64,000 bases of DNA from Atopsyche davidsoni. Its lineage: Eukaryota; Arthropoda; Insecta; Trichoptera; Hydrobiosidae. Location: the NCBI GenBank assembly GCA_022113835.1, contig JAILWY010000001.1, positions 13,942,501-14,006,500 of the forward strand, in the 5' to 3' direction. Under the pieces are notes generated by a model. That model had not been told where the DNA came from and did not search any database. It was given only the letters and a program-made list of their open reading frames with translations. Of this stretch, positions 851-64,000 are shown in pieces. How positions within the stretch are numbered: the stretch's first letter is position 1; the number at the start of each line of letters is the position of its first letter. Position numbers and translations under genes: made by a program.

Positions 851-1068
851 ATTTCATAACAAACCTTGTAAATCAATATTAAGAAACTTTATCGTTACTA
901 TCAATTAGCAGAACGACTTTCTAATAATTTAATAAAATTTTCTAGTGGCTCTCTTTCTATTTCAACGGTATGTATTATAATAAATTCTTCCGATAAGTAT
1001 AAAAACATTTTTAAAAATTCGATACATTTAAAAACGTAAGATTTCATAAACAGGTAACCTCAATATAT

Positions 1069-1597
1069 AATGTCTATTTTTTGGATTGAACGTCAATCAG
1101 ATGCGTATTTATTACCCATTACGGTTTTATAATATTATTACTAATATGATTAGGCACATTAATTCACACATAGAAGATGATTAAAGAAATTCTCAGAAAA
1201 ATATCATCGTGATTTGTGTGGGATTTGAACCCACATAATGGGTAATAAATACGCATCTGATTGACGTTCAATCCAAAAAATAGACATACTTATATGATGG
1301 TGCGCGTCTTGGCTAAATCAATAGATTTTAAAAATAATATCCAGATGGGATTAAAATCGCTTCACTTGTTACTTTGTTAAAAAAGTCCAGTGCTTGCAAA
1401 TCACTAAATATTGGTTGGCCTGGGCACATTGGTTCATATGTAGAGTATGATTGCTAAAAATTCTTGGTTGACGGATGTGATTCGTTAGTACAAGGGTTAG
1501 TACACCGGCCATGTAAGCCAGGGGATGTGAATTTTCTGAGAATTTCTTCAATCATCTTCTATGTGTGAACTAATGTGCCTAATCATATTAGTAATAT
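1069..1597 (-). mobile_element. Family A tRNA-palindrome element, copy 1 (rearranged)
   Basis: The element is flanked by the exact 10-base repeat CTCAATATAT (1059-1068 and 1598-1607). It reads tail-first, so its sense is the minus strand. The family tail lies at 1070-1125 and is followed by part of one arm, with the inverted 3' half of the tRNA-like domain near 1207-1231. A second, oppositely oriented tail follows at 1236-1286, then the family loop, then the other arm (about 1481-1595). The second tRNA-like domain is cut inside its T arm near 1530. The internal extra tail means this copy has been rearranged or is a composite of two units. The arm end (CTAATCATATTAGTAAT) is shared with the other copies. 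No protein is encoded. Confidence 0.75.
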
Positions 1598-1639
1598 CTC
1601 AATATATTACATAAAAATAAAATATTTTGCTTACCGCGC

Positions 1640-1975: not shown

Positions 1976-2080
1976 ATAAAAATGCATTTCATTTTTTATA
2001 TCATTTGATTCATAATGATTAAGTACATTTTTTTTTAAATATTGAAAATTGATTAAAGAAACTCTCAGAAAAATATCATC

Positions 2081-2156
2081 GTGATTTGTGTGAGATTTGA
2101 ACGCACATCCCCAAGCTTACATGGCCGGTGCATTACCAATTATATCAACGAATCAC
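2081..2156 (-). other. tRNA-like domain (A' left arm)
   Basis: A 76-nt tRNA-like unit on the minus strand. The acceptor ends pair over six of seven positions, and the T arm and B-box region are recognisable with one change (TGCGTTCAAATC). The anticodon-loop area reads CATGTAA. It is a module of the surrounding mobile element rather than a free tRNA gene: base 33 is not T, and the same unit recurs in every copy. Confidence 0.6.
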
Positions 2157-2246
2157 TGGTACATAGCAAGAATATTAAACAATCATATCCTATAAATGAA
2201 ACAACGTACTTATTATGCCAATTAAATATTGTGTGACTTTCAATAC

Positions 2247-2474
2247 ATATATCTTATTTTTTATTAACGTCAATCAGATGCGTATTTATTAAATTATTAT
2301 GCGTTAAAAATTCTCGATAAACGGAAGTGATTCGTTAGTACAAGAGTTAGTACACCGGTCATGTAAACCAAGGGATGTGGGCTCAAATCCCACACAAATC
2401 ACGATGATATTTTTCTGAGAGTTTCTTTAAATCATCTTCTATGTATGAACTAATGTGCCTAATCATATTAGTAA
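2247..2474 (-). mobile_element. Family A tRNA-palindrome element, copy nested in A'
   Basis: Inserted in the loop of the A' element and flanked by an exact 12-13-base repeat (T)GACTTTCAATAC (2234-2246 and 2475-2487). It keeps a shortened tail at the left (about 2256-2300) and one full arm at the right with an intact 76-nt tRNA-like domain at 2327-2402. The second arm is lost. The insertion must be younger than its A' host. The terminal sequence CTAATCATATTAGTAAT matches the other A copies. Confidence 0.8.
2327..2402 (+). other. tRNA-like domain, 76 nt
   Basis: Begins GTGATTC and ends AAATCAC, giving a six-of-seven base-pair acceptor stem. The D-arm region GTTAGTACAAGAGTTAGTAC resembles the A box of tRNA-Asp/His-type genes. 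The T stem GTGGG/CCCAC is perfect, and the B box reads GGCTCAAATCC. It carries no CCA or discriminator context suggesting a working tRNA. It is part of a repeated element. Confidence 0.65.
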
Positions 2475-3000
2475 TGACTTTCAATACTCGACTTTTAACC
2501 GTTTGAGTGAAGCGTTTAAATCCGATCCGGTTATTATTATTTTTAAAGTCTATTTAATTTAGCCAATACGGTCGGATTTAAATGCTTTAAAAGTCTAGTA
2601 TTGCCAGTCACACAATATTTAATTGGCATAATAAGTACGTTGTTTCACTTATAGGATATGATTGTTTACAATTTTTGTTAAGTACCAGTGATTCGTTGGT
2701 ATAATTGGTAATGCACCGGCCATGTAAGCTTGGGGATTTACGATGATATTTTTCTTAGAGTTTCTTTTATCAATTTTCAATATTTGAAAAAATGTACTTA
2801 ATCAATATCAATCAATAAAACCTGTATAGGCAAAATCGTACTTCTTGTGAGACGGTATTCACAAAAATCAATAATACATCATTTGATTCATTGTTTAAAT
2901 AAATAAAATAATAAAAAAACTTTCTCTCAGTGACTTTTTATTACAGATTCTTTCTAACTCGTGCAATTGAATAATATATGAAAAATAAAATATTTGCTCT

Positions 3001-7105: not shown

Positions 7106-8314
7106 TACGGTGTGTGCATTATTTTTTTTTTTAGAATTTTTTTGAAATTGGATCTTTATTATAATAAATTAGTACAATATATTCTATTCAAAGTATTGCC
7201 CATCGCTAGCCACTGCTTTTTCCTATCTTTCGGGCAAATTATGGATTCCATCCCAAAAGAACTGGTCTTTTGAAGCCAAGAAAGAATCAAGCCAATTTTT
7301 GATTCCCTGTTCAGAAGTGAAGCGTTTTCCAGAAAGGGCATTCTGCATCGATTGAAACAAGTGGTAGTCGGAAGGGGAAAGGTCTGGGCTATAAAGCGGC
7401 TGAGACAGAACATCCCATCCACTGTTTTCCAAATAGGTTTTAACCAATTTAGCAACATGTGGCCGAGCATTGTCATGATGGAAAATTACAGACTCGTGCC
7501 CGGTCGCATATTCTGGCCGTTTTTCTTCCAATGTTCGCTTCAAACGCATCAATTGTTGTCTGTAGAACTCGGCCGTGATAGTTTGGCCTGATTTCAGCAG
7601 CTCATAGTGGATGATACCCTTCTGATCTCACCAACTACACAGCATTACCATGGCGCCATGAATATTTGGCCTGGCCGTCGATGTTGATGCATGTCCAGGC
7701 TTACCCCATGATTTTTTACGCTTCAGGTTGTCGTAGCAAATCCAGTTTTTATCAGTGATGATACGATGCAAAAATGACTTCTTTTTGTGGCGTTCAAGCA
7801 GCATTTCCGAAATGAAAAATCGCCTTTCGACGTCTTTCAGCTTCAATTCATGTGGCACCCAATTTCCTTGCTTTTGAATCATTCCCAATGCTTTTAAGTG
7901 TCTTAAAATTGTTGCTCGATCAACTCCCAATGATTCTGCGCATTCTGCTTGCGTTTGACAAGAGCCTTTATCGAGCAATGCCTCTAATTCTTCAACTTCG
8001 AATTTTTTTGGTCGGCCTGGACGTTAAAGCGTCGAAACCAGTTCTCACACGTTTTTTGCGATGGAGCATGTTCACCCTAAACTTCACACAGCAATCGGTG
8101 ACTTTCAGCTGGTTTTTTCTTCCAATTGAAACAGAAAAGTAAACCTTCCCGCAAATTGCGTTTTGTTGGTACAAAAGTTGACATGTTGAGAGCTCAAAAA
8201 AAAATGTTGTATACACTTCAGCGATATGACTGAAAACAAAAACGCAATAATGACGATTCAATAGTAGTAACGCTATATCTTAGAAAATCCGAAAAAATTA
8301 ATGCACACACCGTA
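7106..8314 (-). mobile_element. mariner transposon, complete ends, decayed transposase
   Basis: Both terminal inverted repeats are present: TACGGTGTGTGCATTA at 7106-7121 and its mirror ending at 8314. Each is bordered by TA (7104-7105 and 8315-8316). The span of 1209 bases is the usual mariner size. The minus strand encodes a mariner transposase, described separately. The right end is repeated as a fragment at about 11755-11970, so at least one relative inserted nearby. Confidence 0.9.
7184..8184 (-). pseudogene. mariner transposase pseudogene
   Basis: Cut-and-paste transposase of the mariner family, read from an ATG at 8184 down to a TAG at 7184. Recognisable parts in order: the N-terminal DNA-binding region with the CENWFRRF segment; a second helix-turn-helix with CQTQAECAESLGV (7950-7910 area); the linker phrase GMIQKQGNWVPHEL; KSWGKPGHASTSTARPNIHG; the HHDNARPHVAKLVKTYLE block with the second catalytic Asp; and YSPDLSPSDYHLF with the third, a spacing fitting the D,D34D signature. 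The usual TGDEKW block at the first Asp reads TDKNW. An in-frame stop interrupts the N-terminal part, frameshifts occur near 7980-8010 and 7552-7628, and a TAG replaces the Trp after NLPER. Length and ends are normal, but the gene is inactive. Confidence 0.9.
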
Positions 8315-8355: not shown

Positions 8356-8757
8356 AAGAAATTCAATATTTTTGACAGAGAGTACTTGGTGGAATTCCAT
8401 TTTAATATTTTTGAATAAAATACTTGAGTGATTTTCCACATTTTTGTTTTTATTAGTGACCGGTTTCGCCAACCTTTCACGTTGGCATTATCAAACAGAG
8501 TGAGATTTTATATAATATTAAGCAATTAGGTACCGATTTGTTATTTGTTAGGTACATTAAAATCACATTAGCCCTTACCACCTGACAATCATTCTCTCTC
8601 TTTCCAACAACCTCTCCCTCTAACAATTGTTTACCTAATTGCTTAATATTATATAAAATCTCACTCTGTTTGATAATGCCAACGTGAAAGGTTGGCGAAA
8701 CCGGTCACTAATAAAAACAACAAAGTGGAAAATCACTCAAGTATTTTATTCAAAAAT
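8356..8757 (-). mobile_element. Family B hammerhead-like palindrome element, copy 1 (best copy)
   Basis: Flanked by an exact 12-base repeat ATTTATCATATT (8344-8355 and 8758-8769). The one-sided tail is at the left (AAGAAATTCAATATTTTTG onward, about 8356-8410). Two inverted arms follow (about 8411-8530 and 8635-8757) around a pyrimidine-rich loop. Each arm carries the motif GACCGGTTTCGCCAACC...GGCATTATCAAA or its mirror. On the plus strand at 8670-8706 this reads as a degenerate hammerhead-like core: TTGATAA, an extra T, stem GCCAAC/GTTGGC, GAAA, then C-CG-G and TC. No protein frame. Copies B2-B6 lie elsewhere in the window. Confidence 0.8.
8670..8706 (+). other. Hammerhead-ribozyme-like core, degenerate (family B)
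   Basis: TTGATAA stands where the hammerhead CUGANGA box would be, so C3 and G8 are changed. It is followed by an extra T, a perfect 6-base-pair stem (8678-8683 with 8691-8696), GAAA (8697-8700), a C-CG-G mini stem and UC before the predicted cleavage position. Stem I is only about two pairs. The changed core bases make activity unlikely in this copy. The mirror arm carries the same motif on the minus strand. Confidence 0.45.
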
Positions 8758-8869
8758 ATTTATCATATTTACGATAAGTTAATGTTACAGATATTTTATC
8801 AAACGAAGACATCGGAATCCGCAGCACATACATATCACAAAATATTTTTAGCTTCAAAAGACAAACTTT

Positions 8870-9882: not shown

Positions 9883-9953
9883 TATATAATACGAAAGTGT
9901 AGAAGGGCTGCTATACAATTTCTCAGATTCTTAAAATTAAACAAATTTAATTT

Positions 9954-10220
9954 TGTTGAGGGACAAGGCATTTGATTCGTGAAGATCCATTATTATAATG
10001 ACAAAAGTAACTTTGTATTTTGTCTTCGCATTGAGTTAATTTAAATTATTTGCATTACTAGTTTCGACCCGATACCCTGCGTCATCATCAGATGCTTAAC
10101 TGAACATGAGTTTAGTTGAGCATCTGATGATGACCCAGTGTATCGGGTCGAAACTAGTAATGCAAATAATTTAAATAAACTCAATGTGAAGACAAAATAC
10201 AAAGTTACTTTTATCATTAT
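9954..10220 (-). mobile_element. Family C hammerhead-like palindrome element, copy 1
   Basis: Tail at the left (TGTTGAGGGACAAGGCATTT onward, 9954-10000), then two inverted arms of about 100 bases around a short loop near 10096-10119. Flanks match over 10 of 11 bases (AAATTTAATTT 9943-9953, AAATTGAATTT 10221-10231), a likely duplication with one change. Each arm contains GTTTCGACCC...GTCATCATCAGATGC or its mirror. The right arm gives a complete hammerhead-like fold at 10120-10163; the left arm has a mismatch in stem II. No protein frame. Confidence 0.75.
10120..10163 (+). other. Hammerhead-ribozyme-like fold (C1, right arm)
   Basis: In order: stem I strand GCAT (10120-10123), core CTGATGA (10124-10130), one extra T, stem II GACCC/GGGTC (10132-10136 with 10145-10149), GAAA (10150-10153), mini stem III C-TA-G (10154-10157), UA (10158-10159), predicted cleavage, then ATGC (10160-10163), which closes stem I with GCAT. 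The only departure from the hammerhead consensus is the extra T between the core and stem II. A one-base-pair stem III resembles the weak stem III of hammerheads reported in Penelope-like elements, which may need a dimer to cleave. Confidence 0.55.
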
Positions 10221-10299
10221 AAATTGAATTTATTGCTTGTATATAATAATACAATAGCATAAAAAAATCTGCTATAGGATATTAATTGTTTCGAGCACT

Positions 10300-10600: not shown

Positions 10601-10692
10601 AACTGTAAAAGATTTTATATTATATATGTATAATGAAAATAATATTTTTTTATTTAAATCTTCACAGTGAGTTTATTTAGAATATTGTATTG

Positions 10693-10736
10693 GCATAACT
10701 AGTTTCGACCCTATAAACCGGGTCATCATCAGATGC
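10693..10736 (-). other. Hammerhead-ribozyme-like fold (C2, left arm, minus strand)
   Basis: The mirror of the right-arm motif and intact: GCAT, CTGATGA, extra T, GACCC/GGGTC, GAAA, C-TA-G, UU, ATGC, read on the minus strand. Confidence 0.5.
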
Positions 10737-10763
10737 ATGCCTTAAACGCATCAAAGACATCAT

Positions 10764-10807
10764 GCATCTGATGATGACCCGGTTTATAGGGTCGAAACTA
10801 GTTATGC
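10764..10807 (+). other. Hammerhead-ribozyme-like fold (C2, right arm)
   Basis: GCAT (10764-10767), CTGATGA (10768-10774), extra T, stem II GACCC/GGGTC (10776-10780 with 10789-10793) closed by an 8-base loop, GAAA (10794-10797), C-TA-G, UU as the UH site, and ATGC (10804-10807) completing stem I. It has the same 44-nt layout as C1 with a different stem II loop and a different H17 base. Both arms keep the fold. Confidence 0.55.
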
Positions 10808-10924
10808 CGATACAATATTCTAAATAAACTCACTGTGAAGATTTAAATAAAAAAGTTATTATTTTCATTATATTAATGGATCTTCACCATTCAAATGCCT
10901 TTTCCCTGAACAAGTTTTTATATT

Positions 10925-16031: not shown

Positions 16032-16343
16032 TATATTTTTGAGTAAATTACTTGAGTGATTTTCCACATTTTCGTTTTTATTAGTGACCGGTTTCGCCAA
16101 CCTTTCGCGTTGGCATTATCAAACAGAAACTCTGTGGAAAATGTGTAAAATTACTCAAGTACTCTCTTCTCACAAGTCACGATGATATTTTCTGAGAGTT
16201 TTCTTTAATCGTTTTCAATGTCTGAAAAAATGTGCTTAATCACATAAACATACTAATACCTGCATGGGTAAATAAAAACGCATTCTGATTGACATTAATC
16301 TAACTTAATACAAGTACTCTCTGTCAAAAATATTGAATTTCTT
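16032..16343 (+). mobile_element. Family B palindrome element, copy 2, carrying a nested family A fragment
   Basis: The left arm (16032-16125) contains the B core in the orientation GACCGGTTTCGCCAACC. The second arm is reduced to about 16130-16165, and the tail (TCTGTCAAAAATATTGAATT) is at the right end. A 9-base repeat AAATAATAT flanks it (16023-16031 and 16344-16352). The arm-tail junction is shortened relative to B1. A family A fragment inserted at 16168 splits the tail. Confidence 0.65.
16168..16310 (+). mobile_element. Family A fragment, 5'-truncated, inserted in B2
   Basis: Flanked by an exact 12-base repeat CAAGTACTCTCT (16156-16167 and 16311-16322) that belongs to the B2 tail, which fixes both borders. 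It contains only the last part of the sense arm (from the end of the tRNA-like domain) and the full-length tail, including ACCTGCATGGGT. Loss of the 5' side with the tail kept is what target-primed reverse transcription from the 3' end produces. Confidence 0.8.
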
Positions 16344-17740: not shown

Positions 17741-17753
17741 GTCGTTTTAATAT

Positions 17754-18258
17754 CATTACTAATATGATTAGGCACATTAGTTCGCACATAGAAGATGATT
17801 AAAGAAATTCTCTGAAAAATATCATTGTGATTTGTGTGGGATTTGAACCCACATGCCCTGGCTTACATGGCCGTTACACATCACATCCGTTAATCGAGAA
17901 TTTTTAACAATCATATGAACCAATGTGCCCAGGCCAACCAATATTTAGTGATTTCCAAGCACTGGACTTTTTAAACAAAGTAACAAGTGAAGCGATTTTA
18001 ATCCCATCTAGATATTATTTTTTAAATCTATTGATTTAACGGATGTGATTCGTTAGTACAAGGGTCAGTACACCGGCCATGTAAGCCAGGGGATGTGGGA
18101 TCAAATCCCATACAAATCACGATGATATTTTTCTGAGAATTTCTTTAATCATCTTCCATGTGTGAACTAATGTGCCTAATCATATTAGTAAATATAATAA
18201 AACCCGTAATGGGTAATAAAAACGCATCTGATTGACGTTCAATCCAAAAAATAGACAT
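17754..18258 (+). mobile_element. Family A tRNA-palindrome element, most complete copy
   Basis: Flanked by an exact 11-base repeat CGTTTTAATAT (17743-17753 and 18259-18269), so the borders are certain. In order: left arm from ATTACTAATATGATTAGGC (17755) with an inverted tRNA-like domain partly deleted (about 17830-17888); a loop of roughly 150 bases; the right arm with a complete 76-nt tRNA-like domain (18045-18120); the mirror of the left arm end (to about 18190); and a one-sided tail (18191-18258) with the hairpin ACCCGTAATGGGT and the end AATAGACAT. No frame is shared with other copies, so it is non-autonomous. Confidence 0.88.
18045..18120 (+). other. tRNA-like domain, 76 nt
   Basis: GTGATTC/AAATCAC acceptor pairing, D region GTTAGTACAAGGGTCAGTAC, anticodon-arm region CCGGC-CATGTAA-GCCAG, T stem ATGGG-type with GGATCAAATCC as B box. 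Overall size and A/B box spacing suit a type 2 RNA polymerase III promoter. It is a module of the element, not a host tRNA gene. Confidence 0.65.
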
Positions 18259-18269
18259 CGTTTTAATAT

Positions 18270-20766: not shown

Positions 20767-20778
20767 AATATATTATAT

Positions 20779-21108
20779 TATTATTAATATGATTAGGCAC
20801 ATTAGTTCATATTTGGAGGTGATTTAAAGAAACTCTCAGAAAAATATAATCGTGATTTGTGTGGGATTTGAACCCACATCCCCTGGCTTACATGGCCGGT
20901 GTACTAACCCTTGTACTAACGAATCACTTCCGTTTATCGAGATTGTTAAAAATTCTCGATAAACAAATCACGATGATATTTTTCTGAGAGTTTCTTTAAA
21001 TCATCTTCTATATATGAACTAATGTGCCTAATCATATTAGTAATAATATAATAAACCCGTAATGGGTAATAAATACGCATCTGATTGACCAATCCATAAA
21101 TAGACATA
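20779..21108 (+). mobile_element. Family A tRNA-palindrome element, collapsed loop
   Basis: Flanked by an exact 12-base repeat AATATATTATAT (20767-20778 and 21109-21120). The left arm is whole, with an intact inverted tRNA-like domain at 20852-20927. The loop is shortened to a near-perfect inverted repeat (TTTATCGAGATTG...ATTCTCGATAAA) and the sense tRNA-like domain is deleted. The right arm end and the tail (with ACCCGTAATGGGT) remain. The deletion lies at the centre of the palindrome, where replication slippage would act. Confidence 0.85.
20852..20927 (-). other. tRNA-like domain, 76 nt
   Basis: Complete on the minus strand: GTGATTC...AAATCAC ends, A-box-like GTTAGTACAAGGGTTAGTAC, anticodon-arm region CCGGC-CATGTAA-GCCAG, perfect T stem GTGGG/CCCAC and B box GGTTCAAATCC. 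This is close to the family consensus. Confidence 0.68.
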
Positions 21109-21124
21109 AATATATTATATATAA

Positions 21125-28510: not shown

Positions 28511-28657
28511 CCATATTTAAACAATAAATATGATCTACGTAATCTTCTAGCTTAATGGCTAAGAAATTAAAAATCTTTTGGTTTAAGTGTGATTTTGTAT
28601 TTCAATGCTTTTTTTTGTGAATGCAAGAGCGCTAATAAATACAAAATATATATACGT

Positions 28658-28977
28658 ATGTCTATTTATTGGATTGAACGTCAATCAGATGCGTATTTAT
28701 TACCCATTACGGGTTTATTATATTATTACTAATGTGATTAGGCACACATCTGAATCACCTTTGACCAGGTTGGCCTGGGCACATTGGTTCATATGTAGAG
28801 TATGATTGTTATAAATTCACGATTAATGGATGTGATTCGTTAGTGCAAGGGTCAGTACACCGGCCGTGTAAGCCTGGGGATGTGGGTTCAAATTCCACTC
28901 AAATCACGATGATATTTTTCTGAGAATTTCTTTAATCATCTTCTATGTGTGAAGTAATGTGCCTTATCATATTAATA
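28658..28977 (-). mobile_element. Family A tRNA-palindrome element
   Basis: Tail at the left (ATGTCTATTTATTGGATTG, then the ACCCATTACGGGT hairpin), only a stub of the first arm, then the family loop and a full second arm with a complete 76-nt tRNA-like domain (28832-28907). Target duplication is ambiguous because both sides are runs of A and TA; AAAATATATA occurs at 28643-28652 and 28982-28991. The Tigger-like element at 28990 abuts its right end. Confidence 0.75.
28832..28907 (+). other. tRNA-like domain, 76 nt
   Basis: Complete length with a D region GTTAGTGCAAGGGTCAGTAC, anticodon loop CGTGTAA (one change from the family CATGTAA), T arm GTGGGTTCAAATTCCAC and acceptor AAATCAC. Confidence 0.6.
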
Positions 28978-28989
28978 AAAAAAAATATA

Positions 28990-29408
28990 TAGTAATATCC
29001 TGCTTTACGCGAGAAATACGTTCGGAAAAAATCACGTTAAGTGAAATTTGCGTATATCGGGGTTTACGATTAAACATACATACATAATCAAAACTTAATA
29101 CAAAAAAATACGAATCATTTGAATCAATCACTTTAATTCTAAGAACACTTTATGCAGTATTGCATGTTATTTTTACTGAAAAATATATCTGTTGTCTTTT
29201 GGGTAACGTTTTTTTTACGTTCTTGTAAAATACGTTCATAACACCCAACGCTGTTTTTAATTGTTAAGAGAAGTCAATGACTACATTATGTTCATACACA
29301 TTCTTAAATAATAAATTCGCGTAATGCGAGGCATTGTAACGTGAAATATGAAATTCGCGTTATAGTGAAACCGCGTATAACGGGGTCGCGTAAAGCGGGG
29401 TATTACTT
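28990..29408 (+). mobile_element. Tigger/pogo-like miniature inverted-repeat element, complete
   Basis: Ends AGTAATATCCTGCTTTACGCG (from 28991) and its mirror CGCGTAAAGCGGGGTATTACT (to 29407), with TA on both sides (28988-28989 and 29409-29410). The ends resemble pogo/Tigger terminal repeats with several GCG repeats. The 419-base interior has no transposase frame. A related right half is at 9681-9882 and a left end at 61681-61745. Confidence 0.8.
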
Positions 29409-36625: not shown

Positions 36626-36637
36626 TATAATTATTTA

Positions 36638-36841
36638 ATCTTGTTGAGGGACAAGGCATTTGAAGATCCATTATTATAATGATAATTGTAACTTTGTATT
36701 CTGTCTTCACTTTGAGTTTATTATATTTTTTGCATGACTAGTTTCGACCAAATAGACTATGTCATAATCAGATGCATAGCTAAACTGAGTTATGCGTTAG
36801 TTAGCAGCATAACTAACTTAGAATAAAAAGTTACTTTTATC
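36638..36841 (-). mobile_element. Family C palindrome element, copy 3, degenerate
   Basis: Flanked by an exact 11-base repeat ATAATTATTTA (36627-36637 and 36842-36852). The family tail (TTGTTGAGGGACAAGGCATTT) is at the left, followed by an arm with GACTAGTTTCGACC...GTCATAATCAGATGC. The second arm is short. The hammerhead-like motif on the minus strand has a changed core (CTGATTA) and weakened stem II. Confidence 0.75.
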
Positions 36842-38970: not shown

Positions 38971-39178
38971 AGAAATTCAATATTTTTGACAAAAAGTACT
39001 TGGTGGAATTCCATTTTAATATTTTTGAGTAAAATACTTGAGTGATTTTGCACATGTTCGTTTTTATTTGTGACCGGTTTCGCCAACCAGAGTCTCTGTT
39101 TCTGAGAGTCTCTGAATCAAACTCTGAAATAAAAACGAACATGTGGAAAATCACAAAAGTATTTTACTCAAAAATATT
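38971..39178 (-). mobile_element. Family B palindrome element, copy 3
   Basis: Tail at the left (AAGAAATTCAATATTTTTG, 38971 onward), arms at about 39027-39085 and 39124-39178. The core is rearranged to a short loop of GAGTCTCT repeats, so the ribozyme-like motif is lost on one side. Flanks ACTTTGTTTATA (38959-38970) and ACTTGGTTTATA (39179-39190) agree at 11 of 12 bases. Confidence 0.75.
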
Positions 39179-39217
39179 ACTTGGTTTATACTTAAACGCA
39201 TGAGTTCAAATGTAATT

Positions 39218-39349
39218 AAGAAATTCAATATTTTTGACAGAGAGTACTTGGTGACTCTGTTTGATAATGCCAACGTGAAAGGTTGGCGAAACCGGTCACA
39301 AATAAAAACGAACATGTGGTAAATCACTCAAGTATTTTACTCAAAAATA
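39218..39349 (-). mobile_element. Family B palindrome element, copy 4, one arm only
   Basis: Exact 13-base flanking repeat TTCAAATGTAATT (39205-39217 and 39350-39362). The tail is joined directly to one arm carrying TTTGATAATGCCAACGTGAA and GGTTGGCGAAACCGGTCAC. The other arm is absent. The clean duplication shows it inserted, or was later reduced, as a tail plus one arm. Confidence 0.8.
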
Positions 39350-39364
39350 TTCAAATGTAATTCA

Positions 39365-45395: not shown

Positions 45396-45480
45396 CTTGT
45401 AAGGGCGAAAACGACAGGGATGCTTGTGGCCCACAACTACTAGTACGTTTAAAACTGAACATTTATTAAAAAAAAATTAT

Positions 45481-45718
45481 TATTACTAATGTGATTAGGC
45501 ACATTAGTTCATATATAGAAGATGATTTAAAGAAACTCTCAGAAAAATATCATCGTGATTTGTGTGGGATGATACGATCACGATGATATTTTTCTGAGAG
45601 TTTATTTAAATCATCTTCTATGTATGAACTAATGTGCCTAATCATATTAGTAATAATATAATATACCCGTAATGGGTAATAAATACGCATCTGATTGACG
45701 CTTAATCAAAAAATAGAC
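45481..45718 (+). mobile_element. Family A element, tRNA-like domains deleted
   Basis: Exact 12-base flanking repeat AAAAAAAATTAT (45469-45480 and 45719-45730). Both arms are present, but the centre has collapsed. TCATCGTGATTTGTGTGGG joins almost directly to ATCACGATGA at about 45562-45586, removing both tRNA-like domains and the loop. The tail with ACCCGTAATGGGT is complete. Confidence 0.85.
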
Positions 45719-45734
45719 AAAAAAAATTATAGTT

Positions 45735-48059: not shown

Positions 48060-48567
48060 CAGTAAAACCTTGATATGACGGACAAAAAACATTTTAAATG
48101 CGAAAATGTAATTTTTTTTCGTTATTTTCCGAGAATTGATTACAAAAAAGCAGCAAACTTCAAAAGTGCACACAAAACTTGATTCCTTTTCCGTCGTCGA
48201 TATCAAACAGTGACGTCACTTCAAGACGAATATCCGAATACAATTAAATATAATTTTGCTGTTGAGGGACAAGGCATTTGATTCGTGAAGATCCATTATT
48301 ATAATGATAAAAGTACCTTTGTATTCTGTCTTCACTTGGAGTTTATTCATATTATTTGCATTACATGTTTCGACCCAAAACACTGGGTCATCATCAGAGG
48401 TACTTGTATCATTATATATATAATTTTGTTTGTGTTTTGTATTTTTTATTTATATGTAAATACATAGTATATTTTATTAATTTTAAACCTTTTTTTATAC
48501 AACGGAGTTACGGTTTTAACGGACACCCCCCTCCCCCCAATTGTTCCGTTTTATTGAAGTTTTACTG
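48060..48567 (+). mobile_element. pogo-like miniature element interrupted by a family C copy
   Basis: Ends CAGTAAAACCTTGATATGAC (from 48060) and its mirror ending GAAGTTTTACTG (to 48567), with TA at 48058-48059 and 48568-48569. Apart from the C4 insertion and its duplication (about 170 bases) the element would be near 338 bases. The ends resemble pogo/Tigger repeats but differ from the CAGTAATACC family at 28990. No transposase frame. Confidence 0.75.
48259..48417 (-). mobile_element. Family C palindrome element, copy 4, nested in a pogo-like element
   Basis: Exact 11-base flanking repeat ATATAATTTTG (48248-48258 and 48418-48428). The tail is at the left (GTTGAGGGACAAGGCATTTG), then one arm and the motif. 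On the minus strand the motif reads CTGATGA, extra T, GACCC/GGGTC, GAAA, C-AT-G, UA, ATGC. The mini-stem loop is AT rather than TA, while its C-G pair is kept. The second arm is largely missing. Confidence 0.82.
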
Positions 48568-52795: not shown

Positions 52796-52958
52796 TACAA
52801 ATTTACGTTATATATATTTATCTAGAATTTATTTTTTTTAATTATGTGTTTACTTGCCAAATATTTTAAGAAATCATAAATTTTAATTTATTTCTTATTT
52901 TACATGAAAAAAAAATCCTATTTGGTAAATATATTTAAATTTTGACAATACATTTTAT

Positions 52959-53130
52959 ATGTCTATTTTGTGGATTGAACGTCAATCAAGTGCGTTTTAA
53001 TTATCTTTACATGCTTATATTACTTACTAATATGATTAGGCATATTTTTTCGCATATTGAAAATGATTCAAAGAAACTCTCAGAAAGTCACGATGATATT
53101 ATTCTGGGAGTTTTTTCTTGAATAATAACA
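52959..53130 (-). mobile_element. Family A element, strongly collapsed
   Basis: Exact 12-base flanking repeat AATACATTTTAT (52947-52958 and 53131-53142). Tail at the left (ATGTCTATTTTGTGGATTG), first arm to about 53090, then a direct jump into the mirror arm (GTCACGATGATATTATTCTG). Both tRNA-like domains and the loop are missing. The distal arm end is truncated and diverged. Confidence 0.82.
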
Positions 53131-53144
53131 AATACATTTTATTA

Positions 53145-53915: not shown

Positions 53916-53929
53916 ATAAGATATATTCT

Positions 53930-54312
53930 ATATTATTGATTTTTGTGAAGACCGTCTCACAGGAAGTACGATTTTACCTATATTGGTTTTATTGATTGAT
54001 AATGATTAAGTACATTTTTTCAAATATTGAAAATTGATTAAAGATACTCTTGTAAAAATATCATCGTGATTTGTGTGGGATAAACATATAATACAACATT
54101 TAATAAGCATAATAAGTACGTTGTTTCACATATAGGATATGATTGTTAAAAATACTTGCTTAGTACAAGTGATTCGTTGGTATAATTGGTAATGCACCGG
54201 CCATGTAAGCTTGGGGATGTGGGTTCAAATCCCACACAAATCACGATGGTATTTTTCTAAGAGTTTCTTTAATCAATTTACAATATTTGAAAAAATGTAC
54301 TTAATCAATATC
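53930..54312 (-). mobile_element. Family A' tRNA-palindrome element, copy 2
   Basis: Exact 12-base flanking repeat AAGATATATTCT (53918-53929 and 54313-54324). Tail at the left with GTCTCACAGGAAGTACG and CCTATATTGG, a first arm without its tRNA-like domain, a shortened loop, then the second arm with the best-preserved A' tRNA-like domain (54169-54244). The tail matches the right-hand tail of the element at 2014-2877, confirming A' as a separate lineage with its own tail. Confidence 0.85.
54169..54244 (+). other. tRNA-like domain, 76 nt (best A' copy)
   Basis: GTGATTC/AAATCAC acceptor with one mismatch. D region GTTGGTATAATTGGTAATGC, close to the A-box region of tRNA-Asp-type genes. Anticodon-arm region CCGGC-CATGTAA-GCTTG. 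Perfect T stem GTGGG/CCCAC with loop TTCAAAT, and an exact B box GGTTCAAATCC. If read as a tRNA the anticodon triplet would be TGT (Thr), but base 33 is A instead of T, so a decoding tRNA is unlikely. Confidence 0.7.
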
Positions 54313-54324
54313 AAGATATATTCT

Positions 54325-56560: not shown

Positions 56561-56566
56561 CATATT

Positions 56567-56980
56567 ATTACTAATATGATTAAGCACATTAGTTCGTACA
56601 TAGAAGATGATTTAAAGAATCTCTCAGAAAAATATCATCGTGATTTGTGTGGGATTTGAACCCACATCCCCTGGCCTACATGGCCGGTCTACTATACATA
56701 TTAGTAATTAATGGAACAGGTATTTATTTTGTAATACTCCATTTTATTACAATAAAATAAAACCAAATTGTTTTGAAGACTACGTTAATTTCACTATTAG
56801 CGAGAGCTCTTTCGCCGAACACGGCATCTTCAAGTCTTGAAGATGCCGTGTTCGGCGAAAGAGCTCTCGCTAATAGTGAAATTACCGTAGTCTCCAAAAC
56901 CATTTGGTTTTATTTTATTGTATTGCATATTAGTAATAATATACTTAACCCGTAATGGGTAATAAATACGCATCCAAAAA
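56567..56980 (+). mobile_element. Family A element interrupted by palindrome D
   Basis: The left arm is present with most of an inverted tRNA-like domain (from 56640). The domain breaks after GGCCGGT. The centre is reduced so that the arm end CATATTAGTAAT follows almost directly, and then comes the tail with ACCCGTAATGGGT, shortened near its end. Element D is inserted at 56709-56925. The same centre deletion style is seen in the copy at 63852. Confidence 0.78.
56709..56925. mobile_element. Element D: near-perfect 175-base palindrome with hammerhead-like motifs
   Basis: Bases 56748-56922 form an almost perfect palindrome centred on 56835 with essentially no loop. It is preceded by a 39-base unique segment. 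The insertion is bounded by an exact 12-base repeat CATATTAGTAAT (56697-56708 and 56926-56937) that belongs to the family A host. Each arm holds TTGAAGA, an extra T, stem GCCG/CGGC, GAAA, G-AG-C, UC (plus strand 56837-56866; mirror on the minus strand). Architecture and duplication length match families A-C although the sequence is unrelated. Confidence 0.82.
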
Positions 56981-56989
56981 AATACTATA

Positions 56990-62100: not shown

Positions 62101-63845
62101 AGTATAAAATATTAAAAATTCTCTTGATATCTAAAAAATAATATTCACATTCATATATCGCATTTTTCAATTTTTTTATTCAATATATTTTATTTACAAT
62201 ATTACAATATAAATATTTACAATTAAAAAATTGAATACATTGAGTTTTTTTAATTAATCTGGTGACCTAATTCAAATAAATCTTTTTTATGGCTATTTTT
62301 TTAAATTAAAAACTCCATTAAGCCTACTCGGCTTGACCCTCTCCCAGCGTTTGGGGAGCGTTTTTCTATTTATTTTCCACGGCGATTAAGTTCTCGTTTA
62401 TCCTTTCCTAATTCTGAAAGGACTCGGACCATTATCCGGACAAATTTTCAACACCCATCTTAGCCTATTATCTTGTTACTGAACACTCCTCTGATTTAAT
62501 TATTATGGCGTAAAAAAAGTTGCTTAATGAGTAACGATTAAAGCTGAAAATTGCAATTGCGAATATAAATACACAATTTAAAACAATGCTTATTGTAAAA
62601 CTTTTTTGAAATAAAATTTTATTTTTAAGGTTTACGATATATTCGATGGTGTCGTGTTAGAATTTCACCTTGACTGTAGTTTATAAGAGCTTATGAAAAT
62701 TCAAAATAAGTAAGAAACTAAGACTTATTAATAGATAAAATGTTGTTACTTTTTACAAACACAAAAAAAATTATTCATAAAACACACTTCATAAATATAA
62801 TATCCCAAAGTTAAAACTTTTTAAATTCCATTTTTTTAACCAAAGTATTTGTCAGTATAAAACGTAAGAATTATTGTTAATCTGATATTTGCAAACATTC
62901 TCGAAATCAGTTTAGAACTTTTTGGTGAACTTAAAAATTACAACATAAAAACTCAGTTTTTTTGCTAATATTCTTATTTTCCTTCAAGGTATTTTGGCGT
63001 TCTTCGGTATTTGTATGATATCGGTAATTTTTTAACTGCACTTCTGAAACAAAATATCTCAAAACTGTCTTAAACATCACCGAAGCCGCCTTCGTCAGAC
63101 AACGATCCGCTCGGATACAAGAGCCTCCACAAGTACGAGGAGCCGTAAAATTTTGAATCTCGCCACACAGCCTGAGTTTGTACACATTTATTGGTTATTT
63201 ACCTGGCCTGGTGGAAAAGTGCGTGGAAGCCTGAATCCAAGCCTGGTATTTCAGTAGCGAGTAGGCGCACATCTTGATGCCTTCTCACCCCCCATTAAAC
63301 TGCCGTTTCTTTCAGGCGTTATCTTTTATTGTTGGCGTTTTTACGGCGGGGGGTGAGGAAATGTTTTTGATTATTGGGTTTGAATAATTTCCGTGAAAAG
63401 ATTACTTGGGCTAAGCGTGAGATAAAAAAAAGACGTTTCAAATTCTGATACCTTTATAAACCACTTAAATATGATATATTCGCATGGTTTTGGAGAGTCG
63501 CTGATAATCGATCTATTTACTCAAGTGTTATGACTCTGTACGTGGTTGTTATGAATCCGGCGTATACGCCATAAACTATTTTTATAACAAAAGGCAAGAT
63601 GCAAAGAAAGCTGAATTTAGGAGAAGAGTTAAAAACTTCGTAAAATATCAACTACGAGTATTAACAAATTCACGTATTTTTTACTGAAGTAATACTAAAA
63701 ATCTTACTTTATCTAGATTTTAACTCTCACTATTGGCAAGTAAGCGAGCTAGTTGTAGATTCACGGATCTCTTTAAAACAAGTTTATACGACTATATTTA
63801 CATGACTTCATAATCTAAGCTTTTACGAAGTTAAAAAAGAACTTG
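62100..63845. other. A+T-rich DNA with two weak islands
   Basis: 62330-62465 and 63060-63365 are richer in G+C. The minus-strand frame 62931-63185 overlaps the second but is not recognised. Nothing else is visible. Confidence 0.4.
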
Positions 63846-63851
63846 AAGATT

Positions 63852-64000
63852 ATTACTAATATGATTAGGCACATTAATTCATATATAGAAGATGATTTAA
63901 AGAAACTCTCAGAAAAATATCATCGTGATTTGTGTGAGATTTGAACCCACATCTCCTGGTTTACATGACCGGTGTACGAACCTAATCATATTAGTAATAA
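63852..64000 (+). mobile_element. Family A element, cut by the window end
   Basis: The left arm begins ATTACTAATATGATTAGGC. It contains most of an inverted tRNA-like domain, then jumps after ACCGGTGTACGAA to the arm end CCTAATCATATTAGTAAT. The tail, if present, lies beyond the window. Confidence 0.8.

Follow-up and report, generated by a model that had tools for sequence, protein, structure and literature searches.

Penelope-like elements (PLEs), such as those of a lizard and of Adineta vaga, are among the closest described systems for the element analysed in this work. The purified protein of a lizard PLE cleaves and extends both strands and prefers A+T-rich sites, and in vitro it starts at two internal sites of the RNA, the tail being the sequence between them (PMC11167929). 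In A. vaga, the accessible part of PMC3846280 describes PLEs with inverted repeats, one of which may bear a tail, and reports that Penelope repeats can mobilise foreign DNA in trans. The origin of the PLE inverted repeats is unsettled, since self-priming is put forward in that part of PMC3846280 and extension from both strands in PMC11167929. Short non-autonomous elements are represented by the animal retrozymes, whose units of 150-450 bp occur in species also holding PLEs (PMC7229834, in the part available).

In this work, we have analysed a stretch of 64,000 nucleotides from Atopsyche davidsoni (the window) and related loci of the same genome, starting from one palindromic copy, copy D, at 17742-18269. 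Our results show that copy D is flanked by an exact target-site duplication of 12 bp, TCGTTTTAATAT (17742-17753 on the left and 18258-18269 on the right), so that the original prediction was right about an exact duplication and one base short in giving its length as 11. Both arms lie within this single duplication, which excludes a chance neighbouring insertion as the source of the inverted arm. The two inverted arms with tRNA-like sequence in each, also predicted, are borne out: 17744-17873 and 18074-18203, of 130 nt, show 92% complementarity, the right arm carries a tRNA-Thr(TGT)-like gene at 18047-18120 (plus strand; ARAGORN, Rfam), and the left arm contains the reverse complement of tRNA positions 30-76, the 5' part of the tRNA being absent there. 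The arms are in fact longer than 130 nt, as the palindrome extends inward beyond the tRNA, through a segment that we call up and on to another called X; since the arms include sequence upstream of the tRNA, the tRNA is no terminal 'head'. Reading from the outer end E1, the left arm (17754-18038, minus strand) comprises the body, the partial tRNA, up and X, all antisense. The right arm, on the plus strand, begins with the inner part of up adjoining the arm junction (18039-18046, placed by blast), the exact position of this junction being uncertain because the blast placements of both arms overlap at 18006-18038. It proceeds through the tRNA-like gene to the body (18121-18192), which has a run of five Ts, a possible Pol III terminator, soon after the tRNA and terminates at E1. 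A tail of ~65 nt follows, from E1 to E2 (18193-18257, plus strand), and this tail is present on the right side alone, as had been described. No ORF of at least 130 aa was found in copy D, and thus no RT/GIY-YIG ORF lies within the element. The original prediction knew of no described SINE class with such a fold-back layout; inverted terminal repeats with an optional one-sided tail are, in the accessible part of PMC3846280, a described property of PLEs.

The unit from which these copies derive is ~405 nt long and consists of X (126 nt), up (64), the tRNA (76), the body (74) and the tail (65), as read from a tandem array (locus L042, G000:C24:5061000-5063200). This array holds three tandem units and a partial one, some of them internally deleted, and is a possible source of multimeric RNA. 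Segment up resembles part of the body in reverse complement (~76-83% over 30-43 nt), which suggests that the unit is the relic of an older fold-back event. Structure prediction places up, the tRNA and the body in a single long hairpin whose tip is the tRNA region (-74.2 kcal/mol, z -5.8); the predicted fold of a copy of the T2 subfamily is weaker (z -1.7). When 21 chosen arms out of 46 were aligned, paired changes were seen at 9 of the 46 predicted pairs, cloverleaf pairs among them (five sequences at columns 80:91, three at 100:108 and three at 70:139). Since these changes are mostly confined to a few T2 arms of common descent, they are a hint, not proof, that the tRNA fold has been kept by selection. 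The tRNA, called as Thr-TGT in 28 of the 30 ARAGORN calls among the loci, may serve as a promoter, in RNA processing or in RNP binding.

The window contains 12 copies of this dispersed family, the number originally counted: A, B1, B2, C, D, E, F, G, H, I, J and K. Copy A (1059-1607, minus strand) has an exact 10-bp duplication, and one of its arms continues past X and enters the tail of the adjoining tandem unit. Copy B1 (2000-2890, plus strand), which has a 13-bp duplication with E1 on the left and E2 on the right by eye, contains the nested copy B2 (2234-2487, minus strand), with a 13-bp duplication of its own and a right arm formed by the tail alone. Copy C (16156-16322, plus strand) is a single arm, of the E2 side only, within a 12-bp duplication. 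Duplications of 12 bp also flank E (20767-21120, plus strand), G (45469-45730, plus strand, with short arms), H (52947-53142, minus strand, left arm partly deleted) and I (53918-54324, plus strand, with E2 left and E1 right by eye), and one of 10 bp flanks F (28643-28991, minus strand). Copy J (56562-56985, plus strand) is without a clear duplication, and K (63843-64000, plus strand) is cut by the window end. B1 and I belong to subfamily T2, which has a different tail and shows the same ends in these, its two readable window copies. The loop of J holds a separate, near-perfect palindromic repeat (56748-56922, 87-nt arms, 97%), probably a nested small element. Other inverted-repeat elements of the window lie at 8404-8760 (140-nt arms, 96%) and 39006-39363 (83-nt arms, 95%), and two adjoining ORFs at 7223-8023 resemble a mariner transposase; in a search with 7628-8023 the best matches were ~70% identical and mostly without a name, one of them bearing the name mariner Mos1 transposase. 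Two pattern scans of viral contigs gave one match and none, and the match, which showed the pattern alone, was taken as chance.

Beyond the window, a first look through the 370.7-Mb host assembly (80 contigs) yielded 4551 candidates for the given copy, and scoring 40 of them gave 136 matches. The 39 loci that we fetched are the best matches to this copy, so its layout is favoured among them. In 126 kb fetched for PLE loci, that is, for another purpose, there were five matches to the tRNA element, two of which are look-alike neighbours in one locus (L076); this suggests a genome total of very roughly ten thousand copies, as an order-of-magnitude guess. One complex copy with the tail at both ends occurs at three places on contig C15 with equal match scores (L025, L047 and L048), by a recent larger duplication or as an effect of assembly. 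L047 and L048, as copies of L025, were excluded from the arm-divergence, shared-variant, end and ARAGORN counts and included in the count of T runs in 50 arms given below.

The outer ends of the copies are constant: E1 is the border between body and tail (zone bo67-ta4) and E2 is the end of the tail (zone ta61-X6). A duplication score of at least 10 was obtained for 30 of the 45 copies examined, with lengths of 10 (2 copies), 11 (2), 12 (15), 13 (6), 14 (3) and 15 bp (2), the mode being 12, and these duplications are 85% A+T, compared with ~69% for the window. Controls reach a score of 10 in ~2%: the maximum was 9 among 110 mismatched flank pairs, 2000 random window positions gave at least 12 in 6 cases and at least 10 in 39, and 1406 mismatched pairs of genome copies gave 12 in 3 and at least 10 in 30. 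The left end is E1 in 26 of the 30 copies with such a score; the exceptions are L031, which begins inside the antisense tRNA, the single-arm copies L044 and C, and the deleted copy H. The right end falls in the E2 zone by script in 25 of the 30, with 13 to 24 of 24 bases matching, and the diverged tails of L011, L012, L014, L019 and L024 were judged by eye. In total, an E1 end is combined with an E2 end in 31 copies whose duplication is readable, 21 of them by script and 10 by eye (five partly by eye, together with L041, L015, the L076 copy and window copies I and B1). No E1/E1 or E2/E2 copy was seen among those with a readable duplication, in a set found and oriented via the tail, which would leave E1/E1 copies underrepresented. 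L025 and its two duplicates, with their tails at both ends, are apparently E2/E2 and have no readable duplication. The 15 copies scoring below 10 include the tandem copy L042 and, at first, L041, which shows one E1 and one E2 end after proper end setting.

The inner junctions behave otherwise than the outer ends. In a 190-kb sample formed by the window and the PLE loci, which was not selected by layout, though the window itself was selected for this finding, the inner arm-end pairs all differ. The junction sequences inspected in the fetched loci also differ from one another, with breakpoints that recur near certain positions and with overlaps or fillers of a few bases. In an arm-divergence test on 20 hand-picked copies, the mean distances were 0.070 between left arms, 0.066 between right arms and 0.067 between left and right arms, the observed difference being reached in 1883 of 2000 permutations. 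Variable inner junctions, and arms without left- or right-specific divergence, indicate that the palindrome is most likely made anew at every insertion. The copies examined uphold the one-sided tail of the original prediction, with duplications of 10-15 bp, and not a fixed inner layout, as the junctions vary by copy; its view of the family as a SINE with its own head and body repeated, inverted, in front of it is not supported.

We propose that this family is a non-autonomous, tRNA-bearing, ribozyme-less retroposon with a unit of ~405 nt, sometimes in tandem, which is inserted by a PLE-type mechanism, and we consider this reading likely. Most copies consist of two arms of one unit set back to back between A+T-rich duplications of 10-15 bp. 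A putative PLE-type RT/GIY-YIG protein, acting in trans, would make a staggered break with two 3' ends ~12 nt apart, and both 3' ends would serve as primers on a multimeric (or circular) RNA, with copying begun at E1 from one of them and at E2 from the other. The cDNAs would extend for variable distances before their ends are joined, and the tail would correspond to the sequence separating the two start sites. The arms of window copy A and of L011, L034, L041 and L043 cross into the next unit, reading E1, body, tRNA, up and X and then the tail of the neighbour, and the first bases of X are present in many right ends; both observations imply that the template RNA extended past the unit border. 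The tRNA element fits the scheme of the lizard and A. vaga PLEs, and by analogy with these a PLE protein would act on it in trans.

tRNA-derived elements are usually moved by the LINE machinery. One rival weighed was a LINE-dependent tRNA SINE, with a master copy that is itself a palindrome (inverted arm, loop, arm, tail), is transcribed and copied whole and suffers internal deletions later. Such a SINE, too, would be expected to leave fixed outer ends, target duplications and single-arm copies produced by truncation. An inherited palindrome is nevertheless rejected on the inner junctions, which differ among copies, and on the lack of side-specific arm divergence, left arms being no nearer to left arms than to right arms. 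Furthermore, a run of at least four Ts follows the tRNA in 49 of the 50 arms carrying the tRNA 3' motif, so that a Pol III transcript should terminate ahead of the tail, the tRNA is internal in the unit and not at its 5' end, and poly(A) is absent, by eye, at the right ends inspected. We regard LINE-driven copying as improbable.

The PLE-type insertion could also take a different course, in which the palindrome arises by self-priming, through fold-back of a cDNA or of an antisense RNA, and not from two separately primed cDNAs. Self-priming has been proposed for the PLE inverted repeats (PMC3846280, in the part accessible), and the arms of the same copy are closer to each other than permuted pairs (mean 0.052 versus 0.066, with 0 of 10000 permutations as low) and share 28 variants as compared with 10.6 in permuted pairs (0 of 5000 as high). 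Fold-back, however, predicts that the first end dictates the second, in place of a second start site that is fixed; the arm nearest to a given arm is its partner in just 7 of 40 cases; and the private variants shared, 2 against 0.75 expected by permutation, show no clear excess (reached in 887 of 5000). Against it there is also the unequal divergence of the two arms from the consensus in 2 of 10 copies (10 and 1 changes in L027, 4 and 18 in L025, which has no readable duplication), the other eight not showing it. These arm comparisons agree with one template as well as with two. Self-priming is given little weight, about as much as the LINE-dependent course, and two separately primed cDNAs remain our preferred origin of the palindrome. 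A foldback-type DNA transposon or MITE carrying a tRNA gene would account for the inverted arms and the nearly constant duplication length, but we reject it as very improbable indeed, since E1 and E2 are different sequences and not inverted repeats, single-arm copies occur and arms read through the borders of tandem units. LINE twin-priming yields inverted and direct parts taken from separate stretches of the template, and the arms here, which overlap over the tRNA and body, do not fit such an inversion.

The same genome contains a PLE (locus L074, G000:C2:1713500-1721500) with an uninterrupted ORF of 826 aa, which includes RT and GIY-YIG, and with a hammerhead core pattern; the best match of its protein is in the butterfly Parnassius mnemosyne (41% identity). 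This local PLE has inverted arms of variable length, tandem repeats and an extension of ~43 bp on one side, and its duplications, of 11-16 bp, are readable in 11 of 20 copies (10 of 16 loci and one of four window copies); at locus L071 the duplication score is 14, with an exact stretch of 12 bp. A motif scan of 17 PLE loci found both E1 and E2 ends in 10, E1 alone in 6 and neither in 1, and a readable duplication is present in 7 of the 10 loci having both. In the copies with an ORF, it is mostly at E1 that the ORF arm ends, and the PLE and the tRNA element therefore differ in their orientation relative to the tail. We find no convincing sequence kinship of the unit with this local PLE: around E1 and E2, 17 of 400 shuffles reach the score obtained in a comparison with one PLE family. 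The hammerhead core pattern, present in the local PLE, is absent from the unit, and in 3 of 39 loci it lies outside the mapped element. In L042, L074, L013 and L070, a hammerhead was not reported by Rfam at E<=1, and as L074 is among these, Rfam missed the PLE hammerhead too. A string common to the tail and the PLE ribozyme, GCATCTGAT, was seen by eye and was not accepted as evidence. Copies near PLE loci were judged to be background, because copies are frequent. Degraded PLE copies, kin to the 826-aa PLE, lie in the window at 9947-10222, 10629-10913, 36633-36776 and 48246-48398; of these, 9947-10222 and 10629-10913 are solo palindromes formed by the PLE repeat, with an extension on one side and, judged by eye, a string resembling a hammerhead.

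Taking these data further, our current and tentative hypothesis, to which we give somewhat less than an even chance, is that the element is 'Penelope's SINE', a parasite of the PLE machinery with thousands of copies. Here cDNAs primed at E1 and at E2 would nearly always be paired at a break staggered by ~12 nt, the template would be a multimeric or circular RNA, and the tRNA fold would replace the hammerhead as the module for RNA processing or recognition. If true, this would give the PLEs a tRNA-based partner, beside the LINE-dependent SINEs and the ribozyme-based retrozymes. With a short parasite present in thousands of two-ended copies, the origin of the inverted repeats becomes a statistical question, and the rule of one E1 plus one E2 end is a direct prediction for a purified PLE protein. 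In the titles and abstract openings of the papers listed, no tRNA-carrying element ascribed to PLEs was found; PLE-type insertion is known, and the small, ribozyme-less, tRNA-bearing, high-copy variant appears to be new within the literature covered.

How does this element compare with the known systems? With the PLEs of the Penelope/Poseidon group, which have GIY-YIG, it shares inverted and tandem terminal repeats, variable arm lengths, A+T-rich targets, duplications of ~12-13 bp in the same genome and a one-sided tail between two start sites, which in our case are read from the ends and thus putative. In contrast to the PLEs, it has a unit of 405 nt without an ORF and without the hammerhead core, it carries a tRNA-like gene, and its sequence does not convincingly match the single PLE analysed. 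The animal (non-LTR) retrozymes resemble it in being non-autonomous and in their short, A+T-rich tandem units, but the defining feature of a retrozyme is its type I hammerhead, whereas a tRNA fold, and no hammerhead core, was found here. The tRNA SINEs of Lepidoptera (Metulj, PMC4016481; PMC8848866; PMC8010984), as described in the accessible parts of these reports, have in common with it a tRNA-like domain, a high copy number and target duplications; unlike them, the element has an internal tRNA in both orientations and two start sites in place of a single LINE-like 3' start. Finally, the host sequences mobilised by Penelope in Adineta vaga are foreign sequences moved in trans by Penelope terminal repeats, and movement in trans is what we propose for this element, but in the part of PMC3846280 available those are few and bear recognisable Penelope repeats, while the tRNA element is far more numerous and has arms of its own.
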